The notes under the pieces: generated by a model | Told to the model about the DNA's origin: nothing | Database searches by the model: none | Seen by the model: only the letters and a program-made list of their open reading frames with translations | Made by a program: the position numbers and the translations under genes | Source of the DNA: a virus | Reading direction: 5' to 3' (one strand) | DNA length: 53,047 nt | Virus record (IMG/VR): IMGVR_UViG_3300021509_000001 | Location: 1 to 53,047 of that record | Shown: piece by piece, positions 47,521 to 52,720 of the stretch | Layout of the letters: every line of letters begins with the position of its first letter | Numbering within the stretch: the first letter of the stretch is position 1

Positions 47521-47674
47521 AGGAAATGAATTCGAGGAGAACCTGGGCAAGTTCGCCCGCCTGCTTCGCTGTCTCTTCGACGCCCTAAAGGACGCGGGCT
47601 TCACTGAGCAGCAGGCGTTCGAGCTGATCAAAGACTTCCTGAAAAGTTCGCTGGCGGCGGCGAAAGGTGCGTGA
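47492..47674 (+). CDS. Small acidic helical protein
   Basis: 60 residues from ATG 47492 after GGAAGGAGGG. Helical (FEENLGKFARLLRCLFDALKDAGFTEQQAFELIKDFL). The stop overlaps the portal start. Similar small helical genes often lie before portals, but no family can be named. Confidence 0.6.
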   Translation: MTDEIWPFGEGNEFEENLGKFARLLRCLFDALKDAGFTEQQAFELIKDFLKSSLAAAKGA

Positions 47675-48951
47675 TGGCGGAGAAGAAGGAGCCCGATTTC
47701 AAGACGCTCGGAGTTCCGGGCCTGTCGATCTGGTCCGGCGTCTTGCGCGAGGAGTGGCTTTCCGAGCTCCAAGGGAAGAAGGGCCGGAAAGTCTGGCGCG
47801 AGATGCGGGACAACGACTCGACCGTCGGCTCCATCCTCTTCGCCATTTCCCACATCCTCAGGGGCGCCCAGTGGTCCGTCGAGCCGGGCGGGGACTCCAG
47901 GGCGGACAGGGAGGCGGCCGATTTCCTCGAGCAATGCATGCACGACATGGAAACGCCCTGGACCGAGTTCGTTTCCGAGGTCCAAAGTTTTCTTGTCTAC
48001 GGGTTCTCGGTGTTCGAGATCTTGTGGAAAGTCAGGGAAGGTCCGGACGCCCCTCCGTCGGGCCGTTCCAAGTACAGCGATAAGCGCCTAGCTTGGCGGG
48101 ACTTTTCGATCCGGGCCCAGGAGACGATCGTCAGGTGGGACATGGACTCCTCGGGAAACCTCAAGGGACTGTGGCAAGTGGCTCCGCCCGACTATAGGGA
48201 GCGTTACATCCCGGCAGACAAGTTCCTTTTGTTCAGAACTGAAGCGCATAAAGGGTCGCCCGAGGGCCGCTCGGTCCTCCGCAACGCGTACCTCAGTTGG
48301 TACTTCAAAAAGAATTTGCAGATTTTGGAAGGGATCGGGGCGGAGAGGGATCTCGCCGGATTGCCTGTCCTGTACGTGCCTTACGATTATTTGACTGACG
48401 ATGAAAAAGAGAAAGACAGGGCATGGCTAGAGGATTTAGTGAAGAATATCCGCCAGGACGAGGAAGCTGGCCTGCTCCTCCCGATGGACCCGTACGCCGA
48501 AGGCGGGCCCCGGGAGCTCATGCGCCTGGAGCTGATCTCTTCGGCCGGAAGTAAGCAGTTCGACACGTCGGAGATCATCCAGCGGTACGACCACGCCATA
48601 GCGCAGACCGTCTTGGCGGACTTCGTTTTGCTGGGCCTGGAGAGCAAGGGCTCCTACGCCCTGGCCCGGGAGAAGCGCACGGTGTTTGAGACCGCGCTCA
48701 TAGCCTGGCTCGATTCCATCGCGGACGCGATCAACGCCAAGGCGGTACGTCAGTTGTTTGAATTCAACGACTTCGGCATCGACAATCCGCCCAAGCTGGT
48801 GGCCCGCTTGCCGCGCGTGCCGGACCTCGACGAGGTGACGAAGTTGATCGACGCCTTGGCGAGGGCGGGCGCGGAGCTGTTCCCCGACGAGGACCTGGAA
48901 AACGCCTTGAGGGCCCAAGTCGGGCTCCCGGCGAAGAAGACGGAGGCGTGA
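47674..48951 (+). CDS. Portal protein
   Basis: 425 residues from ATG 47674. MRDNDSTVGSILFAISHILRGAQWSVEPGG, then FVYGFSVFEILWKV-like and FLLFRTEAHKGSPEGRSVLRNAYLSWYFK, are landmarks of DUF935/SPP1-type portals. A C-terminal acidic stretch follows helical repeats. Forms the dodecameric channel for DNA. Located between the large terminase and the Mu F/SPP1 gp7-type head protein, as expected. Confidence 0.85.
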   Translation: MAEKKEPDFKTLGVPGLSIWSGVLREEWLSELQGKKGRKVWREMRDNDSTVGSILFAISHILRGAQWSVEPGGDSRADREAADFLEQCMHDMETPWTEFVSEVQSFLVYGFSVFEILWKVREGPDAPPSGRSKYSDKRLAWRDFSIRAQETIVRWDMDSSGNLKGLWQVAPPDYRERYIPADKFLLFRTEAHKGSPEGRSVLRNAYLSWYFKKNLQILEGIGAERDLAGLPVLYVPYDYLTDDEKEKDRAWLEDLVKNIRQDEEAGLLLPMDPYAEGGPRELMRLELISSAGSKQFDTSEIIQRYDHAIAQTVLADFVLLGLESKGSYALAREKRTVFETALIAWLDSIADAINAKAVRQLFEFNDFGIDNPPKLVARLPRVPDLDEVTKLIDALARAGAELFPDEDLENALRAQVGLPAKKTEA

Positions 48952-48952
48952 G

Positions 48953-51010
48953 ATGGCCCTCCGCTCTAGCCTCCTTTCCTCCGAGACGACCTCTTTAGGA
49001 GCGGAGGGCCTTTCCAAAGCGAGAGGCAGGAAGGTTTCGGTCGAGGAAGCCCGCGAAGCCTTCGTCGACGCCTTCGAGAAAATCCGGCACAAGGTCAAGA
49101 GCGAGGACATCAGGGAAGCTTTGGAAGAAGAGAAGCCGAACAAATTCATCAAGAAACTCGAGAAAGCGGGCATCGTGACCGCGGCCCTGCTCGGGGCTTG
49201 GAAGGTCTTCGATCCTCATTTCCTCTATCACGCCAACCGGGAGGTGGTCTACTGGGACTGGGACCGACGTTTGGTCCCCGGCGATTCTTGGGTCAGGGCT
49301 TGGCTAAAGAAGTACGGACTGAAAAGGGTCAAAGACTTATCGGCGGAGACGATCGAGGCCGTCAAGGTCGCCCTGGGCGAAGCGTTGGAGCGAGGCGAGA
49401 ACCCGCTCGTGGCGGCCCGGCGCATCAGGTCGATGATCGGGCCGAACTTCCGCCAGATGGGAGCCATCGAGCGGTACTACTCCAGATTGTTGGATCAAGG
49501 AGTCGCTCAGAGGAAGGCGAGGGAACTGACGCAGAAACTGGCGGATAGGTACGTCAAGCAGCGGGCCGAGACGATCGCGAGGACGGAACTGATCGCGGCC
49601 GAGAACCACGGGCGGCTGGAAGCTTGGGATCGGGCGGTGGACGCGAAGTTAATCGGAAAGGAATCCGAGAAGGAATGGGTAACGGCGTTCGATGAAAGAA
49701 CCTGTCTTCCCGGGTTTGTGATAGTCGAAACTCCCTCAGGACAGCGTCCTGTAGCGAGAGTGCGTCCGGGAGACTATGTGTTGACTCCCTTAGGTTTCCG
49801 GAAAGTTGTCGGAAAGAGTGCTCGATACAAAAAAGAACCTCTTATACGCATTCGAACGGCGTCTCGCGAGTTGGTTTGTACTCAAGACCATCTTGTTTTC
49901 ACAAACAGAGGATGGTTAGAAGCCCGGCAGGTGAGCAAAGGAGACATGCTTTTCCAGAAGCTCCATGATGATGAGGGGAAGGGCGTTATCAAAAGTGTTG
50001 ATGGTGCTTTCAGAGATTCTAATGACCTTCCAGCCGTGCTTTTCAAGAAATCGATCTTTGCGGGCGTCCCTCGCGGGATCTTTGTGCCAGTAGTCTCCGT
50101 CGACTTCGATCGCGATTTTGTGGCTCGGAATCGCGAAGTCAATCGAATACCGGCCGCACGAGGCCTCTTGGACGTAATTAAGTTTAAGTTTGGAAAGAGC
50201 TTGCCTGACTTTTCTTTCTATGGACGTTTCTCCTCGGAATTTTCGATAGCAGGAGAAGGAACAGAATTGGCGGGTTCCAAGTTCACTTGGGCAAACGCGG
50301 AAGCGTTTCCCGCACGTTTTGCACGTGGCGTAGTGAGGGGGGCGTCTGCATTCTTCCGAGCAATACTTTCGGTCTGGTCTGTTGGCTCGAAACACCTTTC
50401 CACAGCGGGCGCATTTCTTGTAAACGGTATTGGCAAGCCGGCATTCGCGACTGCAAACTGTGTACCGATCCGCTTCGGAAAGTCTGACCGTGAATTCCTT
50501 GCCGCATACCGGGCAGATCTTGGTAACTTTTGGAGTAGAACGAAGGTAGCATTCCCGAGAGCAAAACTTCTGCGAATCGCGACGGGGAAGAAATTCCTTG
50601 CCACAATAAGCGCAACGACGAGGCTTCCGTTTGCGTGTCGAAATATGGTAACAAGTCCGCGAACAGAATTTTTGCGTTGGGTAAGCGGGGCGGAAAGACT
50701 TCCCACACACGGGGCAAGTGCGAAGCGTTTCCATTTCCTGAGAAGCTTTGCTTGCACGACTGTTCTTGACCATTGCGCCATATTTTATCATAAGTGGGTC
50801 TGCACTCGCAAGGTTTTTGACTTGACGGTCGAAGGAGTCCATTGTTTCTATGCCAACGGGATTTTGGTCCACAATTGTGATATTTGCGCCCTCGAGGACG
50901 GCGTGCGGGTGAAGTTGGACGAGCCTTTTCCGGACGTTGGGGTCATGGCCCCGCCTGCTCATCCTCGCTGTAGGTGCAGCATGAACCTAATCCCTGCTCC
51001 CGCCCGATGA
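48953..51010 (+). CDS. Head morphogenesis protein (Mu F/SPP1 gp7 type) containing an intein
   Basis: The 685-residue precursor from ATG 48953 becomes a 294-residue protein after splicing. Exteins: residues 1-250, with ETIARTELIAAENHGRLEAWDRA, and 642-685, with CDICALEDG...PPAHPRCRCSMNL. This is the conserved core of Mu gpF/SPP1 gp7 minor head proteins. The intein is inserted between ...FDERT and CDIC, directly at the conserved Cys pair. Failure to splice would destroy this motif, so head assembly depends on splicing. It follows the portal gene by one base. Confidence 0.85.
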   Translation: MALRSSLLSSETTSLGAEGLSKARGRKVSVEEAREAFVDAFEKIRHKVKSEDIREALEEEKPNKFIKKLEKAGIVTAALLGAWKVFDPHFLYHANREVVYWDWDRRLVPGDSWVRAWLKKYGLKRVKDLSAETIEAVKVALGEALERGENPLVAARRIRSMIGPNFRQMGAIERYYSRLLDQGVAQRKARELTQKLADRYVKQRAETIARTELIAAENHGRLEAWDRAVDAKLIGKESEKEWVTAFDERTCLPGFVIVETPSGQRPVARVRPGDYVLTPLGFRKVVGKSARYKKEPLIRIRTASRELVCTQDHLVFTNRGWLEARQVSKGDMLFQKLHDDEGKGVIKSVDGAFRDSNDLPAVLFKKSIFAGVPRGIFVPVVSVDFDRDFVARNREVNRIPAARGLLDVIKFKFGKSLPDFSFYGRFSSEFSIAGEGTELAGSKFTWANAEAFPARFARGVVRGASAFFRAILSVWSVGSKHLSTAGAFLVNGIGKPAFATANCVPIRFGKSDREFLAAYRADLGNFWSRTKVAFPRAKLLRIATGKKFLATISATTRLPFACRNMVTSPRTEFLRWVSGAERLPTHGASAKRFHFLRSFACTTVLDHCAIFYHKWVCTRKVFDLTVEGVHCFYANGILVHNCDICALEDGVRVKLDEPFPDVGVMAPPAHPRCRCSMNLIPAPAR
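49916..50773 (-). CDS. Five-zinc-module PD-(D/E)XK homing endonuclease, antisense within the intein
   Basis: 285 residues from ATG 50773; ATG 50791 and upstream frames are alternatives. Five tandem modules CxxCGKxF-x(8-12)-CxxxC start at residues 20, 54, 87, 121 and 151, a spacing of 30-34. The C-terminal ~110 residues hold a Vsr/DUF559-type nuclease: GETSIERKVRQALSKL, YSIDFAI, IAIEVDGDYWH. Its codons are exact reverse complements of the intein's codons, so TTA, CTA and TCA must be avoided to keep the intein open. Ends TAA inside the intein N-domain. Probably cuts intein-free copies of the head gene to drive homing. Confidence 0.8.
   Translation of the reverse strand: MVKNSRASKASQEMETLRTCPVCGKSFRPAYPTQKFCSRTCYHISTRKRKPRRCAYCGKEFLPRRDSQKFCSRECYLRSTPKVTKICPVCGKEFTVRLSEADRYTVCSRECRLANTVYKKCARCGKVFRANRPDRKYCSEECRRPPHYATCKTCGKRFRVCPSELGTRQFCSFSCYRKFRGETSIERKVRQALSKLKLNYVQEASCGRYSIDFAIPSHKIAIEVDGDYWHKDPARDARKDRFLEKHGWKVIRISESTINTFDNALPLIIMELLEKHVSFAHLPGF
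50782..50811 (-). promoter_or_regulatory. Promoter of the antisense endonuclease gene
   Basis: On the minus strand TTGCGA (50811-50806), 18 bases, TAAAAT (50787-50782), then 8 bases to ATG 50773, with no Shine-Dalgarno. Matches the leaderless pattern of this genome and lies inside the intein, so the element carries its own promoter. Confidence 0.45.
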
Positions 51011-51015
51011 GGGAC

Positions 51016-51044
51016 TTGACAACCGGGGTGCTCCGTCGTATAAT
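51016..51044 (+). promoter_or_regulatory. Perfect consensus promoter TTGACA-17-TATAAT
   Basis: TTGACA at 51016-51021 and TATAAT at 51039-51044 with the optimal 17-base spacer: the strongest-looking promoter in the genome. It starts just after the head gene stop. The predicted transcription start (about 51050) coincides with the first base of a structured RNA. Confidence 0.85.
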
Positions 51045-51049
51045 TTAGT

Positions 51050-51118
51050 TGTCGGGCCGGAGGCCCTGCGTTACCTCGGCTCTTGAAGGCTACTCGCAGG
51101 GCCAAATTTCGCCCGGCA
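51050..51118 (+). ncRNA. Nested-stem RNA upstream of Ro60 gene (Y-RNA-like or leader)
   Basis: Outer stem TGTCGGGC (51050-51057) with GCCCGGCA (51111-51118), one G-U pair. Internal loop CGGA / AAATTTC is 4+7 bases. Inner stem GGCCCTGCG (51062-51070) with CGCAGGGCC (51095-51103) is closed by a 24-base loop. The 69-nt unit has paired ends and begins where the consensus promoter would start transcription, as a Y RNA next to a Ro gene would. The conserved Ro-binding bulge of known Y RNAs is not evident, so a regulatory leader is the alternative. Confidence 0.4.
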
Positions 51119-51142
51119 CTTACGAAAGGAGGCAGAAGAATC

Positions 51143-52720
51143 ATGTACGAACGGCACTATCAAACCAGACGGACTCCCCAGAAGGAGAAGATCCCAGGCA
51201 CCACCCAGGTCCAAAATAACGCGGGGGGCTTTGCCTGGGCGGTTGACGATTGGGCTCGGCTGGACCGTTTCCTGGTTTTAGGATCCGAAGGCGGAACCTA
51301 TTATGTCCGGGAGCGCGAGCTCACGATCCAGAACGCGGAGGCGGTCCACCGGTGCATTCTGGCAGATGGACCTCGCGTAGTGAACCGAATCGTCGAGATT
51401 TCCGATTCCGGTCGGGCACCTAAGAACGACCCCGCTCTCTTCGCTTTGGCGATGGCCGCGTCCCTGGGTTCTCCGGAGACGAAAGCTGTGGCCTTAGAAG
51501 CCTTGCCCAAGGTTGCCCGGACCGGAACTCATCTTTTCCATTTCCTCCGCTATGTTGAAGCTTTCCGCGGTTGGGGCCGCAGCCTTCGCCGCGCCATCCA
51601 GAACTGGTACCTCTCGAAAGACGTTTCCCAGCTCGCCTACCAAGTTGTCAAGTACCAAGCTCGCGACGGTTGGTCTCACAGGGACGCTCTTCGTCTTGCG
51701 CATCCGAAGCCCGATTCTTCCGAGCGGGATGCCCTGTTCCGCTGGATTGTCAAGGGGGAGCCCGTTCCCAAAGTCGAGTCTCTGGCCCTGGTCGACGCGT
51801 TCGAGCGGGCCAAGCGGGCTTCTACGGCGAAGGAGATCTGCTCTCTCATCGCCGACTACGGGTTGCCGCGGGAAGCGATTCCGACGAAATGGCTCAAGGA
51901 GCCCAAGGTGTGGGAAGCGCTTTTGCCCCAGATGCCGATGACCGCCTTGCTGCGAAATCTCGGGAACTTGTCCAAGTACGGCGTGCTGACTCCGCTTTCC
52001 GAGGCGAGCAAGTTCGTGGTCTCTCGCTTCTCTGATGAGGCAGCCATCTGCAAGGCTCGGTTGCATCCGCTTTCCATTTTGCTCGCGCTTGTCACTTATG
52101 CTTCCGGCGGAGGATACCGAGGAAGCGGGACTTGGGAGCCAGTCTCCGAAGTTGTCGACGCGTTGGACCGCGCTTTCTATCTGGCGTTCCAAAATGTAGA
52201 GCCGACCGGCAAGCGCCTCGTTTTGGCTTTGGACGTGTCTGGTTCGATGTGGGAGACTTATATCGCAGGGTCGCTCCTTACGGCGGGGCAAGGTGCCGCG
52301 GCCATGGCGCTCGTGACTGCCGCGACCGAGCCTCAGTGCGAGATCGTCGCCTTCTCGCACGAGATGGTGCCTCTTGCCATTTCCCCGAGGGAGCGCCTCG
52401 ATGACGTTGTGAAGAAGCTGGACATGCCGTTCGGGGCGACCGACTGCGCCTTGCCCATGTTGTGGGCCTTGGAGAAAGGCGTGCAAGCGGATGCTTTCGT
52501 GATCTATACCGACTCCGAGACTTGGTATGGGAACGTGCATCCGGTCCAGGCATTACGGGAATATCGGCAAAAGACTGGGATCCCCGCGAAACTGATCGTG
52601 GTAGGGATGTGCTCCAACGGGTTCTCCATCGCGGATCCTGACGATCCGGGCATGTTGGACGTGGTTGGGTTTGACGCTGTGGTGCCAGCGGTCATAGCCG
52701 ATTTCATCCGCGACGGGTAA
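51143..52720 (+). CDS. Ro60-type TROVE/vWA RNA-binding protein
   Basis: 525 residues from ATG 51143 with AAAGGAGG upstream. The N-terminal ~330 residues are the HEAT-repeat TROVE ring (VQNNAGGFAWAVDDWARLDRFLVLGSEGGTYY, RIVEISDSGRAPKNDPALFALAMAA, HPLSILLALVTYASG). The C-terminal vWA domain has the MIDAS residues LALDVSGSMW (DxSxS), FGATDCA and IYTDSET. Full length for bacterial Ro (Rsr). The family binds Y RNAs and misfolded RNAs and can direct exoribonucleases. It is placed between head genes, not with early genes, and has its own strong promoter. Homologues are known in some phages. Confidence 0.9.
   Translation: MYERHYQTRRTPQKEKIPGTTQVQNNAGGFAWAVDDWARLDRFLVLGSEGGTYYVRERELTIQNAEAVHRCILADGPRVVNRIVEISDSGRAPKNDPALFALAMAASLGSPETKAVALEALPKVARTGTHLFHFLRYVEAFRGWGRSLRRAIQNWYLSKDVSQLAYQVVKYQARDGWSHRDALRLAHPKPDSSERDALFRWIVKGEPVPKVESLALVDAFERAKRASTAKEICSLIADYGLPREAIPTKWLKEPKVWEALLPQMPMTALLRNLGNLSKYGVLTPLSEASKFVVSRFSDEAAICKARLHPLSILLALVTYASGGGYRGSGTWEPVSEVVDALDRAFYLAFQNVEPTGKRLVLALDVSGSMWETYIAGSLLTAGQGAAAMALVTAATEPQCEIVAFSHEMVPLAISPRERLDDVVKKLDMPFGATDCALPMLWALEKGVQADAFVIYTDSETWYGNVHPVQALREYRQKTGIPAKLIVVGMCSNGFSIADPDDPGMLDVVGFDAVVPAVIADFIRDG

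Follow-up and report, generated by a model that had tools for sequence, protein, structure and literature searches.

A predicted homing endonuclease gene nested antisense, and in the same codon register, within an intein of a phage minor head gene

We analysed a virus record of 53,047 bases (IMG/VR IMGVR_UViG_3300021509_000001; the whole stretch is referred to as the window), in which a minor head gene of the MuF type is interrupted by what is very probably a mobile intein, with its homing endonuclease encoded by a separate gene nested on the opposite strand and in the same codon register. The evidence comprises the two open frames, homology, precise empty sites, the avoidance of three codons, a map in relatives of the strand that selection follows, and the recurrence of the arrangement. 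A preliminary description of this DNA had pointed to such an element; the observation is confirmed, and it is not unique, since the element belongs to a recurrent class that is concentrated in MuF genes and partly functional on both strands.

The intein and its insertion site

The interrupted gene is a sense open reading frame (ORF) of 685 codons at positions 48953-51010 (+), unbroken throughout, both ends of which match minor head proteins of the Phage_Mu_F/SPP1 gp7 type (PF04233, 2.1e-10; TIGR01641, 6e-5; PHROG 3517, 4e-22). The intein (PF14890, 6e-9; TIGR01443, 3e-8) occupies 391 codons at 49703-50875 (+), from Cys at 49703 to Asn at 50875, and is inserted as FDERT^CDIC between an N-extein at 48953-49702 (+) and a C-extein at 50876-51010 (+). 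The coordinates originally proposed for the intein hold, and its splicing blocks look intact: the N-terminal splicing region (49703-49960, +) carries Cys1 and the block B motif TQDH at 49880-49891 (residues 60-63), and the C-terminal splicing region (50804-50875, +; TIGR01443, 2.7e-7 to 2.8e-8) ends in VHN and is followed by Cys+1. The nearest solved relatives in a PDB search were the gp41-1 inteins (4e-9).

Nine relatives in IMG/VR lack the intein (L024-L032), and L025-L032 read FDERTCxxC at the site. Across 885 nt the intein-less L024 can be aligned with the joined exteins without a single gap, at 87.8% identity, so the intein boundaries are exact. Judged by its sequence blocks and its precise in-frame insertion the insert is an intein, and protein splicing is predicted. 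RNA splicing need not be invoked, because nothing interrupts the frame of the insert and it contains intein blocks, and a split intein or fractured gene was rejected since the sense frame is unbroken over all 685 codons.

No nuclease match was obtained for the sense middle of the intein in Pfam, NCBIfam or PHROGs, in agreement with the earlier claim that the sense strand encodes none. A weak sense match to PHROG 15127 (5.9e-5) was rejected as a nuclease; it extends past the splicing block and is most likely the mirrored nuclease of a Vibrio-type intein. In canonical large inteins the endonuclease is a domain of the intein polypeptide, read in its frame, whereas the window nuclease lies on the minus strand.

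The antisense nuclease gene

The predicted homing endonuclease gene (49916-50773, -) has 285 codons from the ATG at 50773 and a stop codon at 49916-49918. Its frame is open further upstream, beyond the end of the intein, with other in-frame ATGs at 50731, 50791 and 50962; the start at 50773 places the gene wholly within the intein, and from this start the preliminary placement of a nuclease inside the intein holds. Coordinate arithmetic bears out that nuclease and intein codons share identical triplets. At 49916-49960 the end of the N-terminal splicing region (+) and the C-terminal tail of the nuclease (-) are read from the same DNA.

The product consists of about five zinc modules (CxxC...CSxxC) followed by a C-terminal Vsr/DUF559 domain. 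The zinc-ribbon modules (CPxCGK...CSxxC; 50249-50716, -), presumed to bind DNA, are seen in the sequence, are supported by the PHROG 1271 match and form a confident region of the AlphaFold2 model; the repeated FLAxxxA segments of the sense frame are, as proposed, their mirror images, with CGKEF read backwards giving KFLAA. The catalytic domain (residues 181-265; 49979-50233, -) matches PF18741 (4e-12) and PF04480 (DUF559; 1e-11), and the nuclease matches PHROG 1271 (4.5e-25). The homing endonuclease I-Bth0305I (PDB 3r3p) ranked first both by phmmer (8e-6) and by Foldseek (2.9e-6; AlphaFold model with a mean predicted local distance difference test score, pLDDT, of 83). The candidate catalytic residues E186, D212, D225, H230 and D236 of the window nuclease are retained in L002. 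By sequence and modelled fold the protein is a predicted homing endonuclease of the Vsr/EDxHD type, which would cut the empty allele. A chance antisense ORF was rejected for the window on the basis of this homology and of the relatives.

Codon register and avoidance of sense stops

When codons lie exactly over codons, the sense stops TAA, TAG and TGA face the antisense codons TTA and CTA for Leu and TCA for Ser. Only this register lets synonymous choice avoid sense stops, because Leu and Ser have six codons each; in the other two registers avoidance would restrict neighbouring residue pairs. All four families of antisense nucleases described below occur only in the codon-over-codon register. 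As the preliminary description had suggested, the window nuclease avoids the three codons: none is found among its 15 Leu and 23 Ser codons (0/38). In binomial tests, which assume independent sites, this gives P=0.0026 against the third-position A use of the nuclease itself and P=0.07 against the window's own codon usage. For the window alone the avoidance is modest evidence; together with the relatives it is overwhelming.

A scan with the window nuclease and one relative yielded 80 loci. Full-length homologues (35-48% identical) lie antisense and in the same register within unbroken MuF inteins at L187/L191, L198, L201, L204 and L205. These five intein-borne alleles contain no TTA, CTA or TCA, though the GC content at third positions is only 0.27 in L187 and 0.19 in L205, whereas the three codons occur in homologues beside an intein-less MuF gene (five in L192, 47% identical; two in L195, 51%; two in L200, 46%). 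They also occur (nine) in L202/L203 (40-41% identical), where the MuF intein is fractured around the antisense nuclease and the sense frame is broken. Changes at the third position of the nuclease codons exceeded those at the first in 15 of the 15 pairwise comparisons of the six intein-borne genes, pairs that share sequences and are not independent. The homologues confirm the minus strand as the coding one, and the contrast in codon use between homologues inside and outside unbroken inteins, a test proposed in the preliminary description, agrees with its prediction.

Other arrangements were seen among the loci. In L201, where the sense ORF is on the minus strand, a single MuF gene has two inteins, at the window's site and at a downstream HPxC site; each seems to hold an antisense in-register nuclease, and the two nucleases belong to different families. 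MuF inteins with a sense-fused DUF559 nuclease were found in L224 and L228; of the two inteins in L224, the first lacks a nuclease and sits at an RTC site resembling that of the window. L035 (Vibrio phage GR11A) is a helicase intein fractured around an antisense nuclease gene, its sense frame broken.

Recurrence in other nuclease families

The preliminary description knew antisense nuclease genes from introns and not from inteins. We found the same architecture in four nuclease families, without exception codon over codon and within MuF genes: the window's own (A), two Vibrio/enterobacterial/prophage types (B and D) and a LAGLIDADG-like Gordonia type (C). The inspected records annotate the sense product only. 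Family B, in the Vibrio phages 1.265.O, 1.266.O and 1.082.O, combines a helix-turn-helix with a DUF559 domain (7e-13), again antisense and in register; given the phage's own codon usage, the chance of finding no TTA, CTA or TCA in 1.265.O/1.266.O is about 7e-9. Family C, in the Gordonia phages SchottB, Barsten, Sitar, Lennon, Nordenberg and Thing3, is LAGLIDADG-like by motif only, and its product matches PHROG 5046 (1.7e-15), labelled HNH endonuclease. For the GC-rich Gordonia phages the corresponding P is about 0.5, so that antisense openness by itself says little there; antisense-nuclease inteins are also known at GC contents of 34-45%.

Family D includes Vibrio 1.113.A, many jersey-like Salmonella phages, Gordonia Vivi2, Haemophilus Aaphi23 and others. 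It extends to 101 phage records, 80 IMG/VR loci and 7 bacterial genome loci (Actinobacteria, Gemmatimonadales, Alphaproteobacteria, Firmicutes, Solirubrobacterales and Scytonema), where the phage-record counts are tblastn matches checked on the retrieved loci and not record by record. In 89 of 89 loci analysed (69 distinct nucleases) an uninterrupted sense frame runs opposite the nuclease, again codon over codon. None of the 69 distinct genes contains a reverse stop (TTA, CTA or TCA), compared with about 219 expected from flanking codon usage, an approximate figure since the flanking ORFs were chosen mechanically.

Scanning viral sequences with the Gordonia or the Vibrio nuclease as a single query gave no matches. 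Among 35 intein-match loci from bacterial genomes, antisense nucleases of families A to D were present only in L154-L156, previously known loci of family D, which indicates that the class is not general to inteins. Four Alphaproteobacterial intein-carrying genes (L165, L166, L171 and L172) have, in register on the antisense strand, a frame that stays open for essentially the full length of the gene; these frames match none of the four nuclease families and are probably an effect of composition. In some phage terminase and helicase inteins (L049, L056, L038 and L057) the sense middle resembles no obvious nuclease; by analogy with the ShiLan element discussed below, a second frame of that strand may conceal one.

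Which strand selection follows

To locate the constrained strand, we counted differences at sense codon positions 1, 2 and 3 in 14 independent pairs of family D. The counts were 216/108/269 in the N-terminal splicing block, 971/468/638 in the middle of the intein and 101/74/178 in the C-terminal splicing block, and in the middle position 1 exceeded position 3 in 14 of 14 pairs. In family D the splicing blocks thus change in the way expected of DNA that codes on the sense strand, and the middle in the way expected of DNA that codes on the antisense strand. A comparison of Sitar with SchottB showed the same strand switch, with 9/4/43 in the nuclease core and 12/17/34 in the splicing part. In the family D middle the identity is 0.47 for the sense product versus 0.64 for the antisense product. 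Where the nuclease tail overlaps block B, positions 1 and 3 are about equally variable (7,1,8; 9,2,8; 20,9,20; 25,15,26; 7,2,8), as expected if both strands are constrained. No near allele with an intein was found for the window copy, and selection is therefore shown for its family rather than for this copy.

Expression signals and mobility

In families B and D a sequence resembling GGAGG stands before the antisense ATG, and in L204 AAGGAG does; the Shine-Dalgarno sequence of family D (GGAGGT) is the complement of the conserved intein block F (VYNL). In the window a promoter-like site (TTGCGA-18-TAAAAT, extended -10; 50782-50811, -) ends nine bases upstream of the ATG at 50773, a position that would suit a near-leaderless nuclease message.

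Many phages have an empty site: by tblastn, the joined flanks are matched in a single place, over 80% or more, by 74 Gordonia records and by 257 records mostly from Salmonella phages. ChadMasterC and Jabberwocky are phages with an empty site. In Sitar and Vivi2, whose exteins are 95-96% identical, one site is occupied by two unrelated antisense-nuclease inteins. Such patchy presence is what homing predicts, not proof of it.

Neighbouring genes

The portal gene (47671-48951; PF06074) lies directly upstream of the MuF ORF. Downstream, a perfect sigma-70-like promoter (TTGACA-17-TATAAT; 51016-51044, +) is followed by a stable candidate hairpin RNA (51048-51119, +; the promoter and hairpin lie within 51016-51125), directly upstream of a Ro60/TROVE gene (51083-52720, +; PF25045, 2e-68). 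The best Rfam match of the hairpin is the nematode family ceN72-3_ceN74-2 (E 0.017, below the gathering score), and nematode stem-bulge RNAs of this kind are Y-RNA-like. The pair may represent a Y RNA and its Ro protein carried by a phage.

Proposed mechanism and alternative explanations

We propose that the ribosome would read the whole insert of the sense transcript as one long intein, which the Hint ends would excise to restore the head protein, with 294 residues in its mature form. From an antisense transcript the nuclease would be produced independently of the head protein; it would bind and cut intein-less MuF alleles of co-infecting phages, and repair would copy the intein in. Several points weigh against this reading: there is no clear Shine-Dalgarno sequence upstream of the nuclease start in the window, the promoter-like site is weak and a match to consensus only, the codon avoidance of the window alone is weakly significant against its own codon usage, and the AlphaFold2 model of the sense intein, from a two-sequence alignment only, has a pLDDT of 31, so that the intein fold rests on sequence.

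The lack of a strong ribosome-binding site would also suit a nuclease that is a silent passenger, intact by descent but inactive in a fixed intein. We regard this as improbable in view of the open frame, the conserved catalytic region and the purifying selection on relatives, and of the patchy presence with nine empty relatives. A similarly small chance is given to the idea that both strands are functional throughout, with the sense middle serving, for example, as a linker that times splicing: the symmetric constraint in the overlapping tails fits this, but the sense identity of the middle is well below the antisense identity. It is very unlikely that a nuclease gene was inserted antisense in the head gene with the frame kept open and no splicing at all. 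The ShiLan and Pacc40 elements do lack splicing domains and yet leave the host frame open (PMC11855218), but the window has Cys1, TxxH, the terminal HN and Cys+1 and matches PF14890/TIGR01443, and the N- and C-terminal blocks of family D are under sense selection. Finally, a real sense middle casting a reverse-complement shadow can be dismissed almost entirely: long in-register antisense frames do arise by chance in GC-rich genes (SchottB, Blubba and several Alphaproteobacterial inteins) and a sense motif, DFHGD, is conserved in family D, but nuclease families and a solved homing endonuclease are matched by the antisense products and no nuclease by the sense middle, third-position variation tracks the nuclease strand until it reaches the splicing blocks, where it switches, the sense AAEDFHGD lies exactly opposite the nuclease motif VAVEVFGG, and cases occur at GC 34-45%.

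Relation to known systems and implications

With canonical large inteins carrying an in-frame LAGLIDADG or HNH nuclease, the element of the window shares the Hint blocks, the precise in-frame insertion, the patchy presence and a nuclease of homing type; there the nuclease is a domain of the intein, whereas here it is a separate gene on the opposite strand. I-Bth0305I (EDxHD, Vsr-like) is the closest solved relative of the catalytic domain by both sequence and fold, but 3r3p was deposited as a mobile intron protein, while the window nuclease adds zinc-ribbon modules and sits antisense in an intein. Dassa and colleagues reportedly described in 2009 fractured genes and split inteins with a free-standing nuclease between the halves, Vsr-like nucleases being common among them. 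The likeness is the nuclease gene nested between intein halves; in fractured genes, however, the host frame is broken and splicing occurs in trans, in contrast to the unbroken sense frame of the window, and L202 is an antisense fractured relative of the window nuclease.

In a phage methylase, the ShiLan domain or Pacc40 insertion hides a same-strand, out-of-frame nuclease without splicing domains (PMC11855218). The nuclease likewise overlaps the host gene, whose frame is open through the insert, but it uses another frame of the same strand, and an insertion of this type was rejected for the window, where the nuclease is antisense and splicing domains are present. Group I introns in Porphyra SSU rDNA carry nuclease genes on the complementary strand (PMC2585584), and thus also have an antisense nuclease gene in a self-splicing element. 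These are RNA elements in which the host frame may close, so that, unlike in the window intein, there is no double-strand coding constraint. Among the papers searched, none was found that describes antisense nucleases in inteins; a 2025 preprint may overlap.

We consider it likely that inteins with an antisense nuclease have evolved independently and form a widespread class within phage MuF genes, that in family D, where the nuclease spans almost the whole intein, the splicing blocks encode functional protein on both strands and the Shine-Dalgarno sequence complements block F, and that the free-standing, fractured and unbroken forms of the window's family mark a path by which nucleases enter inteins. 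The class takes in roughly 100 phage records, together with prophage-like loci from several bacterial phyla. Inteins are thought to gain mobility by taking in an in-frame nuclease domain. A mobility gene on the opposite strand uncouples nuclease expression from the host protein, at the price that one stretch of DNA must read both ways. Because selection visibly switches strands along the element, these inteins offer a natural system for measuring double-strand coding. The free-standing, fractured and unbroken relatives make the entry of nucleases into inteins testable, and Gordonia terrae phages with and without the intein suit a direct test of homing.
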